Shown here: positions 1-8,183 of the stretch, in pieces | How the letters are laid out: each line of letters opens with the position of its first letter | Numbering within the stretch: the first letter of the stretch is position 1 | Assembly: GCA_016928495.1 (NCBI GenBank) | Contig: JAFGKQ010000325.1 | Span: forward strand, 1 to 8,221 | DNA length: 8,221 nucleotides | Source: Candidatus Fermentibacterales bacterium | Lineage (GTDB): Bacteria; Fermentibacterota; Fermentibacteria; Fermentibacterales; JAFGKQ01 | Direction: 5' to 3' | Translations under genes and position numbers: made by a program | Notes under the pieces: generated by a model | What the model was told of the DNA's origin: nothing | What the model saw: the letters and a program-made list of their open reading frames with translations, nothing else | Database searches by the model: none

Positions 1-2
1 AG

Positions 3-773
3 TTCGATGGGATGGGCGAGTATCTCGGCCCCTACCTGCAGGAGCGGGTCAACGGAGTCACGACGGAGATGTATCCCGTCGGCCCCAACTCCATCGCAGG
101 GACAGGTTACGAGGTCACCCTCACCAATGGGCGACTCACCAGCCTTCGCTACTACGTGGGCCGGTTCGACTCGAGCGCCGTGCCTTCTATTGAATACCAT
201 GAGTTGTTCAGCGACTTGTCGACAGCAGACGTGTACAGGGAGATGGATCTTCTGGACTTCTGCGCCGAGCAGGGGGGCACAGTCTTCGTGGTGACCGACG
301 TGACGGACTACAGGATCACGGTCTTCTCCGCGGACGGCTCGGTTGAGCGTGCGATCGAGCCGGGTGTAGCACGGCTGCCAAAAACCGATGAGGAGATCAG
401 ATCGGAGATAGAGGAATTCGACGACTCTCATACAGGTGACCGGGCCTACACAGGGGGCTACGAGCCTTCTCCTTACCATCCGCTGATCGAGCTTGCGGGA
501 GTCGACGGTGATGGAAGACTCTGGGTGAGGAGACTGGATGCCGCAGAAGGCTATCTCTTCGATGTCTGGGACTCCATGGGAAGCCTGGCTTGTCAGGTCA
601 TGCTCGAGGACGTCGCTGGCGACCTGGAGCTCACCTTCCACGTCGACCGCTACGGCGTACTCGGAGCGAACCTCGACTCGGACTGGCATCCGAGGGTGTA
701 CATGCTCGTTCTGGATGATAGTGAACGGAGCGAACTCCAGAGGAACCCGGGAACAGCAGAGAACCACACCTAA
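3..773 (+). CDS. 6-bladed beta-propeller protein, 5'-truncated by window edge
   Basis: The reading frame is open from the first complete codon (F-D-G before the first Met at position 12), so the true start lies outside the window and residues are numbered here from the Met. Only the C-terminal two thirds of a propeller is visible. It aligns with the two downstream genes: a linker with T-D-E-E-I then Y-E-P-S-P-Y, a blade strand G-D-G-R-L-W-V-R-R, then F-D-V-W-D-S-M-G, and a closing P-R-V-Y-M-L strand equivalent to Q-K-L-Y-L-L in the paralogues. It is much more diverged than those two are from each other and carries about 18 extra residues after the last strand. By analogy it is probably a secreted or lipid-anchored propeller of unknown ligand, but its signal peptide is not visible. 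The next gene begins 23 bp downstream, which suggests one transcript. The family call is good; the function is unknown. Confidence 0.75.
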   Translation, partial: FDGMGEYLGPYLQERVNGVTTEMYPVGPNSIAGTGYEVTLTNGRLTSLRYYVGRFDSSAVPSIEYHELFSDLSTADVYREMDLLDFCAEQGGTVFVVTDVTDYRITVFSADGSVERAIEPGVARLPKTDEEIRSEIEEFDDSHTGDRAYTGGYEPSPYHPLIELAGVDGDGRLWVRRLDAAEGYLFDVWDSMGSLACQVMLEDVAGDLELTFHVDRYGVLGANLDSDWHPRVYMLVLDDSERSELQRNPGTAENHT

Positions 774-782
774 CCGGATAGT

Positions 783-789
783 AGGAGGT
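783..789 (+). promoter_or_regulatory. Strong Shine-Dalgarno site of the small Cys peptide gene
   Basis: AGGAGGT lies 7 nt upstream of the ATG at 797, a near-perfect anti-16S match at ideal spacing. It is the best ribosome binding site in the window and is the main argument that the 62-codon frame behind it is translated rather than spurious. Confidence 0.75.
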
Positions 790-796
790 CTGTCGA

Positions 797-985
797 ATGA
801 CATGGGAAGATCCGAGGCTTGTGGGGCTTGGGAATGACGGCACCAGAGGATTCAAACTCCCCTTGTGCTTCCCCGGCGTCGATGTCCTCTTCTGGTGCGA
901 GGCTGGAGCCATCCACTACGACGAGTGCTGGCCAGGCGGTGGCAAGCATGTGGAGATATGCGTTGACGGGAGCCTGGCTGACTGA
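797..985 (+). CDS. Small CxxG-repeat peptide, putative RiPP-type precursor
   Basis: A 62-residue protein with a strong Shine-Dalgarno site, 23 bp after the preceding propeller gene and 60 bp before the next, all on one strand. Residues 1-23 contain no Cys and include P-R-L-V-G-L near the N terminus. The remainder holds four regularly spaced units: C24-F-P-G, C34-E-A-G, C44-W-P-G and C55-V-D-G, with Cys spacings of 10, 10 and 11. A Cys-free leader followed by evenly spaced Cys with Gly at +3 is the layout of ribosomally made, post-translationally modified peptides, for example radical-SAM thioether products. It is also compatible with a small metal-binding or disulfide peptide. There is no hydrophobic signal peptide. 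No radical SAM enzyme, PqqD-like protein, protease or exporter is in the window, so the RiPP assignment is inference. I do not recognise a named family. Confidence 0.6.
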   Translation: MTWEDPRLVGLGNDGTRGFKLPLCFPGVDVLFWCEAGAIHYDECWPGGGKHVEICVDGSLAD

Positions 986-1045
986 GGCAACGAGGATGAC
1001 TGTAGCGTTGACAGCGAACGCGCAACCCGGGTTCTCTGGTCTCTG

Positions 1046-2194
1046 ATGGGAAACCCACATTCAGCCTTGTCCGGCCACCGGGACTTGGCCCCATCTCTGG
1101 CTTCGGCGCTGCTTGTGTCCCTGATCAGCCTCGGATGCGGTCATGGCAGTCCGGCTGATGATGGCACTGACTTACCTATCGATACTCTCGAGGTCTTGAT
1201 GGAGATAGGAGAGGAACTGGGGGACTCCACCGATAGCTTCGGCTACATTGCTGATGCCCTGATCGACAGCAACGGACAAATACTGGTCTGCGATGAGATG
1301 GAAGGCTGCCTGAAGGTCTTCGATCTGAATGGTGACTTCATTCGGCTGTCCTTGCACCGCGGATCGGGACCCGGGGAGTTCCGTACTGCCAGGAGCATGT
1401 TCTCGATGCCCGATGGCCGTGTATGCGTCCTGACCGGGGACAGACTGGGATACCTGGCGTTTGACGACTCGCTCGACTTGGTGGAGGAATGCAGCCCATG
1501 GTTCCAGAACTCGCCCTACTACGCAACGGCTCTTTCCGATAGCGAACTCGTCATGTGCAGGCATCATGGAAATGCGGCAACCGGCAACATGCTCCAGACA
1601 GTGGCCGTCTACCGTTGGGGCGAACCAGAATGGAAGACACTGCTCTGGAAAGACTCCATGCGGGTTGAGGGAGACGGTGACGAGGCCCTGTCAGCGATGC
1701 TCCGATTCTCACTGGTAGATCAGCTCAGCACATGTGGAGTCGGTGATGGCATCGTGTACTTCGCCCCCAACGACCCACACCTCTACGAGGTGTTCGCGTG
1801 GGACTCCAGCGGCGAGGAGGTTCTTCACATCACAAGGACCATGGCCCCAGTGGTCAGGACAGAGCAGGAGATTGCGGACGAAGTCTTCTATCTGAATGCC
1901 TACATGGCAAGCCGTTCCACAGGGCACAGGCCGTTGGGCTTCGATTACGAACCTGAGCCGTACAGGGACATGATTGCTGAAGTGGAGATCGGTCCCGACA
2001 GCAACCTATGGGTGAGACTCGGCACCCGCGAGGGTCTATTCTTCGACATTTACGACAGAAATGGAGACCCTCTCGGACATGCCTTCTACGATGATCCGGG
2101 GTGGAGCTGGGAAACGAGGGGTACTCCATGCGGAATCCTCGCTTGGGAGCTGGATCCTCCGGAGGGCTACCAGAAGCTGTACCTGCTGAGATAG
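1046..2194 (+). CDS. 6-bladed beta-propeller lipoprotein (tandem paralogue A)
   Basis: A 382-residue protein. A basic/polar N terminus precedes a hydrophobic stretch (about residues 14-30) ending in S-L-G-C31, a plausible but slightly non-canonical lipobox (Ser at -3), so it is probably an outer-membrane or periplasmic lipoprotein. A short linker leads into the blades: D-T-L, E-I-G-E, G-D-S-T, S-F-G, then the hallmark R-G-S-G-P-G-E-F (105-112) and M-P-D-G-R-V. Later blades include Y-R-W-G-E-P-E-W, G-P-D-S-N-L-W-V-R and a closing K-L-Y-L-L strand. The family adopts an NHL/TolB-like propeller fold; ligands are generally unknown. The ATG at 1046 is the only in-frame ATG between the upstream TGA and the signal sequence, but it has no convincing Shine-Dalgarno site. 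Translation may therefore be coupled to the upstream small gene, which is in the same frame. It closely resembles the next gene, indicating tandem duplication. Confidence 0.85.
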   Translation: MGNPHSALSGHRDLAPSLASALLVSLISLGCGHGSPADDGTDLPIDTLEVLMEIGEELGDSTDSFGYIADALIDSNGQILVCDEMEGCLKVFDLNGDFIRLSLHRGSGPGEFRTARSMFSMPDGRVCVLTGDRLGYLAFDDSLDLVEECSPWFQNSPYYATALSDSELVMCRHHGNAATGNMLQTVAVYRWGEPEWKTLLWKDSMRVEGDGDEALSAMLRFSLVDQLSTCGVGDGIVYFAPNDPHLYEVFAWDSSGEEVLHITRTMAPVVRTEQEIADEVFYLNAYMASRSTGHRPLGFDYEPEPYRDMIAEVEIGPDSNLWVRLGTREGLFFDIYDRNGDPLGHAFYDDPGWSWETRGTPCGILAWELDPPEGYQKLYLLR

Positions 2195-2357
2195 GGAAGA
2201 GAACGCAGGGTTTCGGTGGCCGGCAAGACCGGGTGTCCGCAATCACTCCGGGATGTTTGGCGCCGTTTCCGGTGGAACCATCGGGAAGGGTGCGACTGAT
2301 GCAGCTTGCCGGACCGGTTCGCCAGGCAGTCGGCTTGTTGATCGGATGAGGGTAGCC

Positions 2358-3509
2358 GTGAGCCGTCCTTCGAGTGCTTCGATGCATCGTCGTGTGATGA
2401 TACTAGTCCTCCTGACCGCGTTCCAGTTGATCGGGGTGACGCTAGCTGGCTGCAGAAGTACTCCCGTGGTCTACGACAGAATCATGCCACCTGTCGACAC
2501 TCTTCGGGCGGTTCTGGAGATCGGGGAGCAGTTCGGCGACTCGACCTGCTCGTTCGGCATCCTGATGGACGCCCGGATCGATGACCGGGGCCGGATCCTC
2601 GTTCTGGACGAGCTGGGGGCGTGCCTCAAGGTCTTCGATATAGAGGGCAACTACATCCAGCAGGTATCCGGACGCGGATCCGGTCCGGGGGAGTCGAGGA
2701 ACGTCAAGGGTCTGTTCGTTATGCCGGATGGCAGGGTGGGGATAATGGCATCCGACAAGAAGGGCTACGTGGTTTTCGATGATTCGCTCAGATTCGTCGA
2801 GGAGATCGGGCTCTGGATGCAGGACTCTCCCTATCATGCCACTGCGCTGTCCGACAGCTTGCTCGTGATGTGCAGGTACGACGGCAGCAGCGAGTCGCAG
2901 TGCATTCTGCAGACCGTATCCATCTACCGCTGGGGCGAACCTGAATGGCAGACCCTGCTGTGGAAGGACTCGATGGAGGTTGGCGGGAGCTACCCCGGGG
3001 ACCCTTCAGCCGTTCTGCGTTTCGCCCTTCTTGACCGGCTCAGCACCGGCGGGGTTGGAGATGGGATCGTCTACTTCGCTCCCGGGAGCCGCTACGAGTA
3101 CCGGGTCTTCGGCTGGGACTCGACCGGGAGGCAGGTCCTGAGCATCACCAGGGAGCTGGCACCCGTCGAGAAGTGCCTGGAGCAGATCGACTACGAGATC
3201 TTCTACACGGGAAGCTCGCTGCAGAGACGATCCACCGGGCACAGGCCGCTTCCGTTCGAGTACCAGCCGGAGCCTTACAGGGGCATGGTCCTCGATGTCG
3301 GGATAGGTCCCGACAGCAACCTCTGGGTCAGGAGGGGAACCTGCAACGAGCCGTTTTTCGACATCTACGACCTCGAGGGCAATCTACTGCGACATGCGAT
3401 CTACCCGGACAGCGCCTGGGACTGGCAGACCGAAGTCACACTGCACGGCGTCCTGGCCTGGGAGCTGGATCCCCTCGAGGGCTACCAGAAGCTCTACCTT
3501 CTGGAGTGA
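2358..3509 (+). CDS. 6-bladed beta-propeller lipoprotein (tandem paralogue B)
   Basis: Start chosen at the GTG at 2358, because GAGG at 2348-2351 sits 6 nt upstream and the resulting 383 residues match the neighbouring paralogue (382) and the minus-strand one (377). Alternatives are ATG at 2346, ATG at 2382 and a poorly supported ATG at 2253. The N terminus has basic residues, a hydrophobic core and a canonical lipobox L-A-G-C32. The blades follow paralogue A nearly throughout: D-T-L, E-I-G-E, G-D-S-T, S-F-G, R-G-S-G-P-G-E, M-P-D-G-R-V, F-D-D-S-L, A-T-A-L-S-D-S, L-V-M-C-R, Y-R-W-G-E-P-E-W, T-L-L-W-K-D-S-M, I-G-P-D-S-N-L-W-V-R and Y-Q-K-L-Y-L-L. About 60% of the first 130 aligned residues are identical by eye. 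It is probably an envelope-anchored propeller with a ligand-binding or scaffold role; the ligand is unknown. By eye its codons are more GC-rich at third positions than those of paralogue A. Confidence 0.88.
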   Translation: MSRPSSASMHRRVMILVLLTAFQLIGVTLAGCRSTPVVYDRIMPPVDTLRAVLEIGEQFGDSTCSFGILMDARIDDRGRILVLDELGACLKVFDIEGNYIQQVSGRGSGPGESRNVKGLFVMPDGRVGIMASDKKGYVVFDDSLRFVEEIGLWMQDSPYHATALSDSLLVMCRYDGSSESQCILQTVSIYRWGEPEWQTLLWKDSMEVGGSYPGDPSAVLRFALLDRLSTGGVGDGIVYFAPGSRYEYRVFGWDSTGRQVLSITRELAPVEKCLEQIDYEIFYTGSSLQRRSTGHRPLPFEYQPEPYRGMVLDVGIGPDSNLWVRRGTCNEPFFDIYDLEGNLLRHAIYPDSAWDWQTEVTLHGVLAWELDPLEGYQKLYLLE

Positions 3510-7049: not shown

Positions 7050-8183
7050 CTATCTCTCCCACTCCAGAAGGTAGATCTTGGGGTAGTCTACCGGCGCGAA
7101 GTCGTAGGCCAGCATCCCTCCAACGAAGCAGAAGCGCAGCTCCCTCACGCCCTCCAGCTCCGGGATCGTCACCACTCTGAGAAGCGTTCCGGAAGCATCG
7201 TAGACCTCGAAGGCCGGCACGCCGGTGTAGCCCTGTCCCACCCAGACGTTGCCGGCATCGTCGGCATTGATCGTCGAGATCGCCAGGTGATAGGGCTCGA
7301 CGTCCTCCACCTCCTCGCGACGGACGGTGGTCGTCCCGTCATCGCTCCGGCTCATGCCCATGTTCAGGGCCCCCTCGGCCAGCTCCTCCGGGGTCTTGGC
7401 CACGCGCTCCCACTCCTTCTCCACGATCACCGAGGACGTCCCGTCGGGCCCCAACACCTCCACGCAGCAGGTGCTGTCCGAGCGAACGGCGAAGAAGACG
7501 TTGCCGGAAGCATCGGTGTCCCATACGCAATCCACGTTCTGCACGTTCACGCTCTGCTCCCCGTCGACCACGCGGAGCTCGATCATCAGGGGATAGCTCC
7601 TGTAGACGTGCTCCGGCTCCATCCCCTCGCCGGTGTACCTGCCCAGGTCGCTGGTCCCGTAGTAGCCGTCCTCGTCCACCTGCAGGTCCAGGGACCCCGC
7701 CACGAAGGTGTTGCCCGGCCCCGTCGCCGGGTCCACGGGGGCTACGGGCGTGAACCCCTCTAGCCTGTATTCGTAGGCGTAGCTGGAATCGAAGAAGCTG
7801 AGCTGGTGGCCGCCGTAGTCCGTCACCACCATCCCGCCGTCGCGCAGGAACGCGAACCCCGAGGGGAAGTTGAACTCGCCTGGACCGGAGCCCAGCCCCC
7901 CGATGGTCCGCAGAAGCTCCCCGTCACGCGAGAACACGCCAAGCGTGGCCTTCAGGCCGTCCACGGCACAGATGTTGCCGTCAGGACCGAACCTTGCCTT
8001 CAACACGGTCCCGAACTCCTGGGTGGAGTCACCGGTCAGCACCCCGATGGTGTCGATCACGGCCAGCGACAGGGTGTCCACAGTGGTGCCTTCAACTTCT
8101 GCAACTGCCCGGGGCTGCTCGCCGCAGCCGGCGGCAAGCAGGGCTCCGATCGCTACTCCGATCGGGGACAGAGCATGTCTCAT
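7050..8183 (-). CDS. 6-bladed beta-propeller lipoprotein (diverged paralogue)
   Basis: A 377-residue protein. The N terminus M-R-H then a hydrophobic core ends in the canonical lipobox L-A-A-G-C20, giving a lipid-anchored envelope protein. The propeller begins D-T-I-G-V-L-T-G-D-S-T-Q-E-F-G, then F-G-P-D-G-N-I-C-A-V-D and the hallmark G-G-L-G-S-G-P-G-E-F (95-104). Blade repeats continue with L-R-D-G-G-M-V-V-T-D, D-A-S-G-N-V-F-F, D-A-G-N-V-W-V-G and the closing Y-P-K-I-Y-L-L strand shared with the left-hand paralogues. It has two adjacent Cys in S-T-C-C-V-E-V, absent from the others. GGGA lies 7-8 nt upstream of the ATG at 8183. It is clearly a family member but distant from the tandem pair, on the opposite strand and outside their operon. 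Its ligand is unknown. Confidence 0.88.
   Translation of the reverse strand: MRHALSPIGVAIGALLAAGCGEQPRAVAEVEGTTVDTLSLAVIDTIGVLTGDSTQEFGTVLKARFGPDGNICAVDGLKATLGVFSRDGELLRTIGGLGSGPGEFNFPSGFAFLRDGGMVVTDYGGHQLSFFDSSYAYEYRLEGFTPVAPVDPATGPGNTFVAGSLDLQVDEDGYYGTSDLGRYTGEGMEPEHVYRSYPLMIELRVVDGEQSVNVQNVDCVWDTDASGNVFFAVRSDSTCCVEVLGPDGTSSVIVEKEWERVAKTPEELAEGALNMGMSRSDDGTTTVRREEVEDVEPYHLAISTINADDAGNVWVGQGYTGVPAFEVYDASGTLLRVVTIPELEGVRELRFCFVGGMLAYDFAPVDYPKIYLLEWER

Follow-up and report, generated by a model that had tools for sequence, protein, structure and literature searches.

A CxxG-repeat peptide gene between propeller genes

The window, an 8221-base contig (C104) analysed at its full length, belongs to a genome assembly of 337 contigs that is 81% complete. 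Between two propeller genes, P1 and P2, where the sequence-only reading had placed it, lies a small open reading frame, A2, which starts 23 bases past P1, with its ATG at 797 and the end of its stop codon at 985 (Table 1). The 62-residue product is MTWEDPRLVGLGNDGTRGFKLPLCFPGVDVLFWCEAGAIHYDECWPGGGKHVEICVDGSLAD, with Cys residues at positions 24, 34, 44 and 55 (spacing of 10, 10 and 11), each followed by Gly at +3. The length, the Cys and Gly positions, the spacing and the Cys-free leader with its P-R-L are all as previously described. Searches of Pfam and NCBIfam gave zero matches for the peptide. Elsewhere in the window, a toxin-antitoxin pair at 3608-4085 matches ParE_toxin (ParE toxin) and RHH_1 (ribbon-helix-helix antitoxin) above the Pfam cut-offs.

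Table 1. Positions of the features of the A2 locus in the window and on contig C153.
Feature	Contig	Position	Strand	Basis
Junction with C153, whose end (reverse strand) overlaps exactly by 14 bases	window	1..14	.	Overlap and reading frame
Propeller 1 (P1), C-terminal 256 aa; 403 aa across the junction	window	3..773	+	Alignment with P2, P3, P4 and a G017 propeller continues across the junction
Shine-Dalgarno, full AGGAGGT, 7 bases 5' of ATG	window	783..789	+	Sequence
Putative RiPP precursor peptide 2 (A2), 62 aa, four CxxG units	window	797..985	+	ORF call, homologues, profiles
Leader, residues 1-23, Cys-free, W3-E-D-P6-R7-L8, candidate ScmD recognition motif	window	797..865	+	[WY]xxP near the N-terminus in 22/22 aligned precursors; W/Y/LxxP literature (PMC12710340)
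Core, residues 24-62, units CFPG, CEAG, CWPG, CVDG	window	866..982	+	Sequence; Gly at +3 in homologues
P2, a DUF5128-like propeller lipoprotein of NHL-type fold, immediately following A2	window	1046..2194	+	Family search, model; G017/G013 orthologues after CxxG precursor, 47% identity
Propeller lipoprotein P3, 55% identical to P2	window	2346..3509	+	PF17170 8e-8, above cut-off; 48-51% identical to G013/G017 partners
Fourth propeller lipoprotein (P4)	window	7050-8183	minus	
ScmF, radical SAM/SPASM	L011 (C153)	929-2050		TIGR04251 549 bits, cut-off 400
ScmE, radical SAM/SPASM	L011 (C153)	2053-3153		TIGR04250 578 bits, cut-off 400
ScmD, PqqD-like	L011 (C153)	3158-3448		TIGR04248 102.9 bits, cut-off 100; also PqqD PF05402

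Scm enzyme genes on a probable adjoining contig

The sequence-only reading had called A2 an orphan with no obvious modifying enzyme nearby. That description is misleading: the peptide looks orphan because the contig breaks 0.8 kb upstream, and the enzymes are encoded on contig C153, which probably adjoins the window, as judged from overlap, reading frame and homology rather than from reads. The 14-mer at the junction has two occurrences in the whole genome, at the end of C153 and at the start of the window, and the P1 frame is continuous across the join, with both sides aligning to other propellers. C153 carries the genes for ScmD, ScmE and ScmF and a first precursor peptide, A1, on the same strand as A2, giving the operon order ScmD-ScmE-ScmF-A1-P1-A2-P2-P3. 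CxxxCxxC is present in both ScmE and ScmF. A1, encoded directly downstream of the radical SAM/SPASM gene for ScmF, is MTWEDPRLFGIGAGGFDGAMDCKHGYSPKLSCDGGIEDWVQCWPGGHIQTELCLPGPWQS and is 43% identical to A2. The locus thus has the general make-up of a RiPP system: a short precursor divided into leader and core, with genes for modifying enzymes and for a recognition element next to it. Reading by eye, we also noted two genes upstream of ScmD, one glycosyltransferase-like and on its strand, the other encoded in the opposite direction and specifying a secreted, trypsin-like serine protease; either might belong to the pathway, for example as the leader peptidase.

The proposal that the flanking contig be searched for radical SAM/SPASM and PqqD-like genes was borne out by ScmE, ScmF and ScmD. 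The accompanying search for peptidase and transporter genes had a different outcome: no leader peptidase could be assigned, and we saw no transporter on the joined contigs (C153 and the window), which counts against our preferred explanation.

Homologues of A2 accompany ScmF-like genes

The closest relatives of the cassette are in genomes G017 and G013, whose ScmF proteins are 59-60% identical to that of C153. The order ScmD-ScmE-ScmF-CxxG peptide-propeller is common to these two genomes and the cassette described here (genome G000). The four-unit peptides of G017 and G013 begin MEWSNPRLVDL... and VEWCNPVIVDL..., respectively, and are immediately followed by orthologues of P2 and P3 (47-51% identity); the G017 peptide, encoded directly after ScmF, is 41% identical to A2. 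In other relatives, too, an ScmF-like gene is closely followed on the same strand by a short ORF of CxxG repeats, with 3 to 7 CxxG units behind YxxP leaders in the less close cassettes. In the cassette with the strongest ScmE (G228, 626 bits), ScmD-ScmE-ScmF are accompanied by a peptide that has a YEKP leader and two CxxG units, by ScmC (304 bits) and by an S26 peptidase. In G086, two closely similar five-unit CxxG precursors (L045 45-269 and 4302-4532) flank the ScmD-ScmE-ScmF genes of one cassette.

A position-specific search of related genomes, as suggested by the sequence-only reading, found homologues with conserved Cys and Gly. We built a blind profile from peptides of other genomes only, with no G000 sequence, and in a local search with this profile the A2 frame ranked first of 295 own frames (E = 7.6e-4). 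A similar profile, likewise free of G000 sequences and run over 60 whole genomes at E up to 0.01, gave 17 matches. For 16 of these, an ScmF-like gene is encoded on the same strand no more than about 1.2 kb away, and the 17th is A2; the matches near ScmF include some in G033, G035, G039 and G002, genomes outside the profile. In the search of the genome that found A1, a third match, C75:210 (E 0.08), was rejected as an unrelated frame on C75. A contig scan with the bare peptide yielded two chance matches, one in a Caldiserica MAG and one within a longer frame from Alteromonadaceae; the translated frames are not CxxG-repeat peptides. Two long frames near ScmE/F-like genes also match the CxxG profile, one in L127 at 2990 (248 codons, 55.5 bits) and one on the minus strand of L051 at 8929 (197 codons, 53.2 bits); these are possibly larger or tandem precursors.

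A short ORF with weak profile E-values (1.7e-4 to 7.6e-4) might be a chance or decayed frame between propeller genes, with no relation to RiPPs. However, in 300 dinucleotide-shuffled windows, ORFs of 40-110 aa reached a maximum of three CxxG units and never four; in the real window, all ORFs in this size range apart from A2 have at most one; and shuffling the residues of A2 itself produced four CxxG units in only 83 of 200,000 trials. The codon-substitution comparison proposed earlier, made between A2 and its paralogue on C153, gave dN 0.68 and dS 3.9 (NG86), a ratio of ~0.18 that is indicative only because dS is saturated; differences by codon position number 26, 27 and 39, favouring the third position. 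Together with the paralogue itself, the orthologue, the blind profile and the conservation of the frame in three genomes, these results make a chance ORF extremely improbable.

Four Cys in 62 residues could also be those of an unmodified small metal-binding protein that holds zinc or an iron-sulfur cluster. We regard this as very unlikely, since homologues have anywhere from 2 to 7 units, their Cys residues are single, mostly 9-14 residues apart and followed by Gly at +3, with no paired CxxC, the linkage to ScmE/F is invariable, and the leader bears a recognition-element motif. We conclude that A2 is almost certainly a precursor of the ScmD-ScmE-ScmF cassette.

Relation to the SynChlorMet system

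SynChlorMet (TIGR04248-TIGR04252) is a RiPP system predicted from sequence and known through NCBIfam; a search among open-licence papers found no paper on it. The A2 locus resembles this system in that ScmD, ScmE and ScmF, all encoded on C153, score above the curated cut-offs, the gene order is the same, and a small Cys/Gly precursor directly follows ScmF. By contrast, the A2 locus lacks an ScmA match, ScmC and the S26 peptidase, it has two precursors, each followed by a propeller, and the A2 leader begins WEDP rather than YEKP.

The ScmA model (TIGR04252, cut-off 35 bits) gave no match to A2 at E up to 10, which counts against our preferred explanation. With the same model, the peptides of the best relatives reached 22.5 bits (G013) and 29.2 bits (G327), both below the cut-off, and a search over 385 genomes gave nothing above it, with most weak matches being chance-like. 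The peptide of the G228 cassette, the one with the strongest ScmE, likewise had no match, and the failure of both this peptide and A2 shows that the model is narrow. For ScmC (TIGR04249, cut-off 125), the best match in the genome, with an assembly that is 81% complete, scored 21 bits and lies on C308, with none on C153 or in the window; no S26 peptidase of the kind found in other Scm cassettes lies beside A2. C308 (L058) carries a second cassette with twin radical SAM genes, an ScmF-like one at 1121-2167 and an ScmE-like one at 2260-3198 (both minus strand), together with ScmC-like (21 bits) and S26-like frames; we found no CxxG precursor there.

The presence of ScmD, ScmE and ScmF on C153 and the homologues with conserved Cys and Gly support the earlier view of A2 as a RiPP precursor. 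"Undescribed", the word attached to that view, fits in one respect and not in another: A2 fails the ScmA model, but the SynChlorMet cassette is already a named prediction with a precursor model of its own.

A proposed route of leader recognition and core modification

Our preferred explanation, which we consider highly probable overall, makes A2 the second of two precursors in a RiPP operon of the SynChlorMet (Scm) type, and we propose that this operon works as follows. ScmD would act as a free-standing PqqD-type recognition element, binding the W-x-x-P-x-L leader and presenting the core to ScmE and ScmF. In each CxxG unit, these two enzymes would then most likely form a thioether bond between the Cys sulfur and the alpha carbon of the Gly at +3, and the product would be a string of four un-nested four-residue rings. 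The leader would then be cut off by a protease, and the product would work together with the neighbouring lipoprotein propellers, either at the cytoplasmic membrane or outside it.

Recognition elements of the PqqD, FusE, McjB and StsC types bind W/Y/LxxP (PMC12710340), and W3-x-x-P6 is hence the most likely binding site of ScmD. The locus shares with such lasso and PqqD-type systems a free-standing PqqD-like protein (PF05402) and a W/YxxP leader (PMC12710340); unlike lasso systems, it has no lasso cyclase or peptidase, and ScmD binding is a prediction from sequence.

The proposed ring chemistry is an analogy with streptosactin, in which a SPASM radical SAM enzyme links Cys31 to the alpha carbon of Gly34 by an un-nested S-C-alpha bond (PMC8172795), and with the weak match of one precursor of the homologue set to the StsA sactipeptide model. 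A2 has the Cys-Gly +3 pattern of StsA-type sactipeptides, and SPASM radical SAM enzymes are common to both systems; streptosactin is made with one radical SAM enzyme, whereas the A2 locus has two. ScmE and ScmF match StsB below threshold, far under the cut-off. On these grounds, we judge four un-nested Cys-to-Gly thioether rings the probable, if far from certain, product of A2.

The bond type is not fixed by sequence alone, since C-C bonds, beta- or gamma-thioethers and other linkages are also formed by enzymes of the radical SAM/SPASM class. The same cassette might form beta- or gamma-thioethers to residues between Cys and Gly, as in ranthipeptides, or make another Cys- or Gly-centred change, with Gly serving only for a tight turn. 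Consistent with this, ScmE and ScmF match, below threshold, the ranthipeptide maturase PapB as well as families that form C-C bonds, some cores read CxPTG or CxPNG, with Gly at +4, loosening a strict +3 acceptor rule, and the presence of two different radical SAM enzymes suggests two steps. However, the residues between Cys and Gly vary while Gly is kept, and more conservation would be expected of these residues if their side chains were the acceptors. Such other bonds are a serious possibility, though one we place short of an even chance.

Lipoprotein propellers as possible partners of the peptide

The N-termini of P2 and P3 are lipobox-like by eye (SLGC and LAGC), and both proteins match DUF5128 six-bladed propellers, P3 with a score above the cut-off. 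They resemble NHL propellers by sequence and in a model of moderate confidence (pLDDT 66) that gave no function beyond the fold. A propeller stands beside the precursor in three cassettes (G000, G017 and G013), and all three are without ScmC and S26 genes; in most other Scm cassettes, ScmC-like genes, S26 genes or both are present and a propeller of this kind is missing. It is this replacement of the kinase-like ScmC and the S26 peptidase by propellers that makes the locus a variant of the cassette. The propeller may be a receptor, carrier or partner of the peptide, and we put the chance that it is a dedicated partner of the modified peptide at about even.

The modified core could instead be a cofactor or prosthetic peptide of the neighbouring propeller, as PQQ is for quinoprotein propellers, rather than a free natural product. 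One propeller follows each precursor, this pairing holds in all three propeller-type cassettes, the enzymes are PqqD/PqqE-like, and the joined contigs yielded no transporter. By contrast, P2 is nearest to NHL propellers and not to the eight-bladed quinoprotein type, albeit with a moderate model, and most Scm cassettes have no propeller; we consider a cofactor role improbable. A broader proposal is that the locus represents an Scm sub-type in which a CxxG ring-string peptide, modified by radical SAM enzymes, is obligately paired at the cell envelope with an NHL-type propeller lipoprotein, with duplication of such pairs within the operon, the peptide being a ligand or prosthetic group of the propeller and not a secreted antibiotic. 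We offer this tentatively and think it on the whole doubtful.

The best relative of P4 in G017 (L043 3549-4676) directly follows a radical SAM gene with an N-terminal PqqD-like stretch (L043 2217-3518), suggesting that propellers may also be partnered with radical SAM genes of another type.

A substrate rule for Scm precursors

Among 22 aligned precursors, Gly stands at +3 for 101 of 111 Cys residues, compared with 3-25% at other offsets. The overall percentage for +3 is somewhat favoured by selection because about a dozen of the peptides were chosen by their position after ScmF and the presence of at least three Cys, and the rest by CxxG content. Eight of the ten exceptions have Gly at +4, in CxPTG-like or similar units. 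The spread in unit number and spacing given above for homologues is that of this set. Peptides with YxKPEL leaders and 2-3 CxxG units were also seen at L055 10580 and 10868, L057 2952 and L059 7368 (minus strand), near more distant ScmF-like genes (240-265 bits), and the rule hence seems to reach beyond Scm proper.

The main outcome is a testable substrate rule: a [WY]xxP leader and 2 to 7 C-x-x-G units, encoded directly after ScmF. This rule allows precursors to be detected well beyond the narrow ScmA model and opens the twin radical SAM chemistry to co-expression tests. Of second interest is the presence of propellers in place of the kinase-like ScmC and the S26 peptidase.
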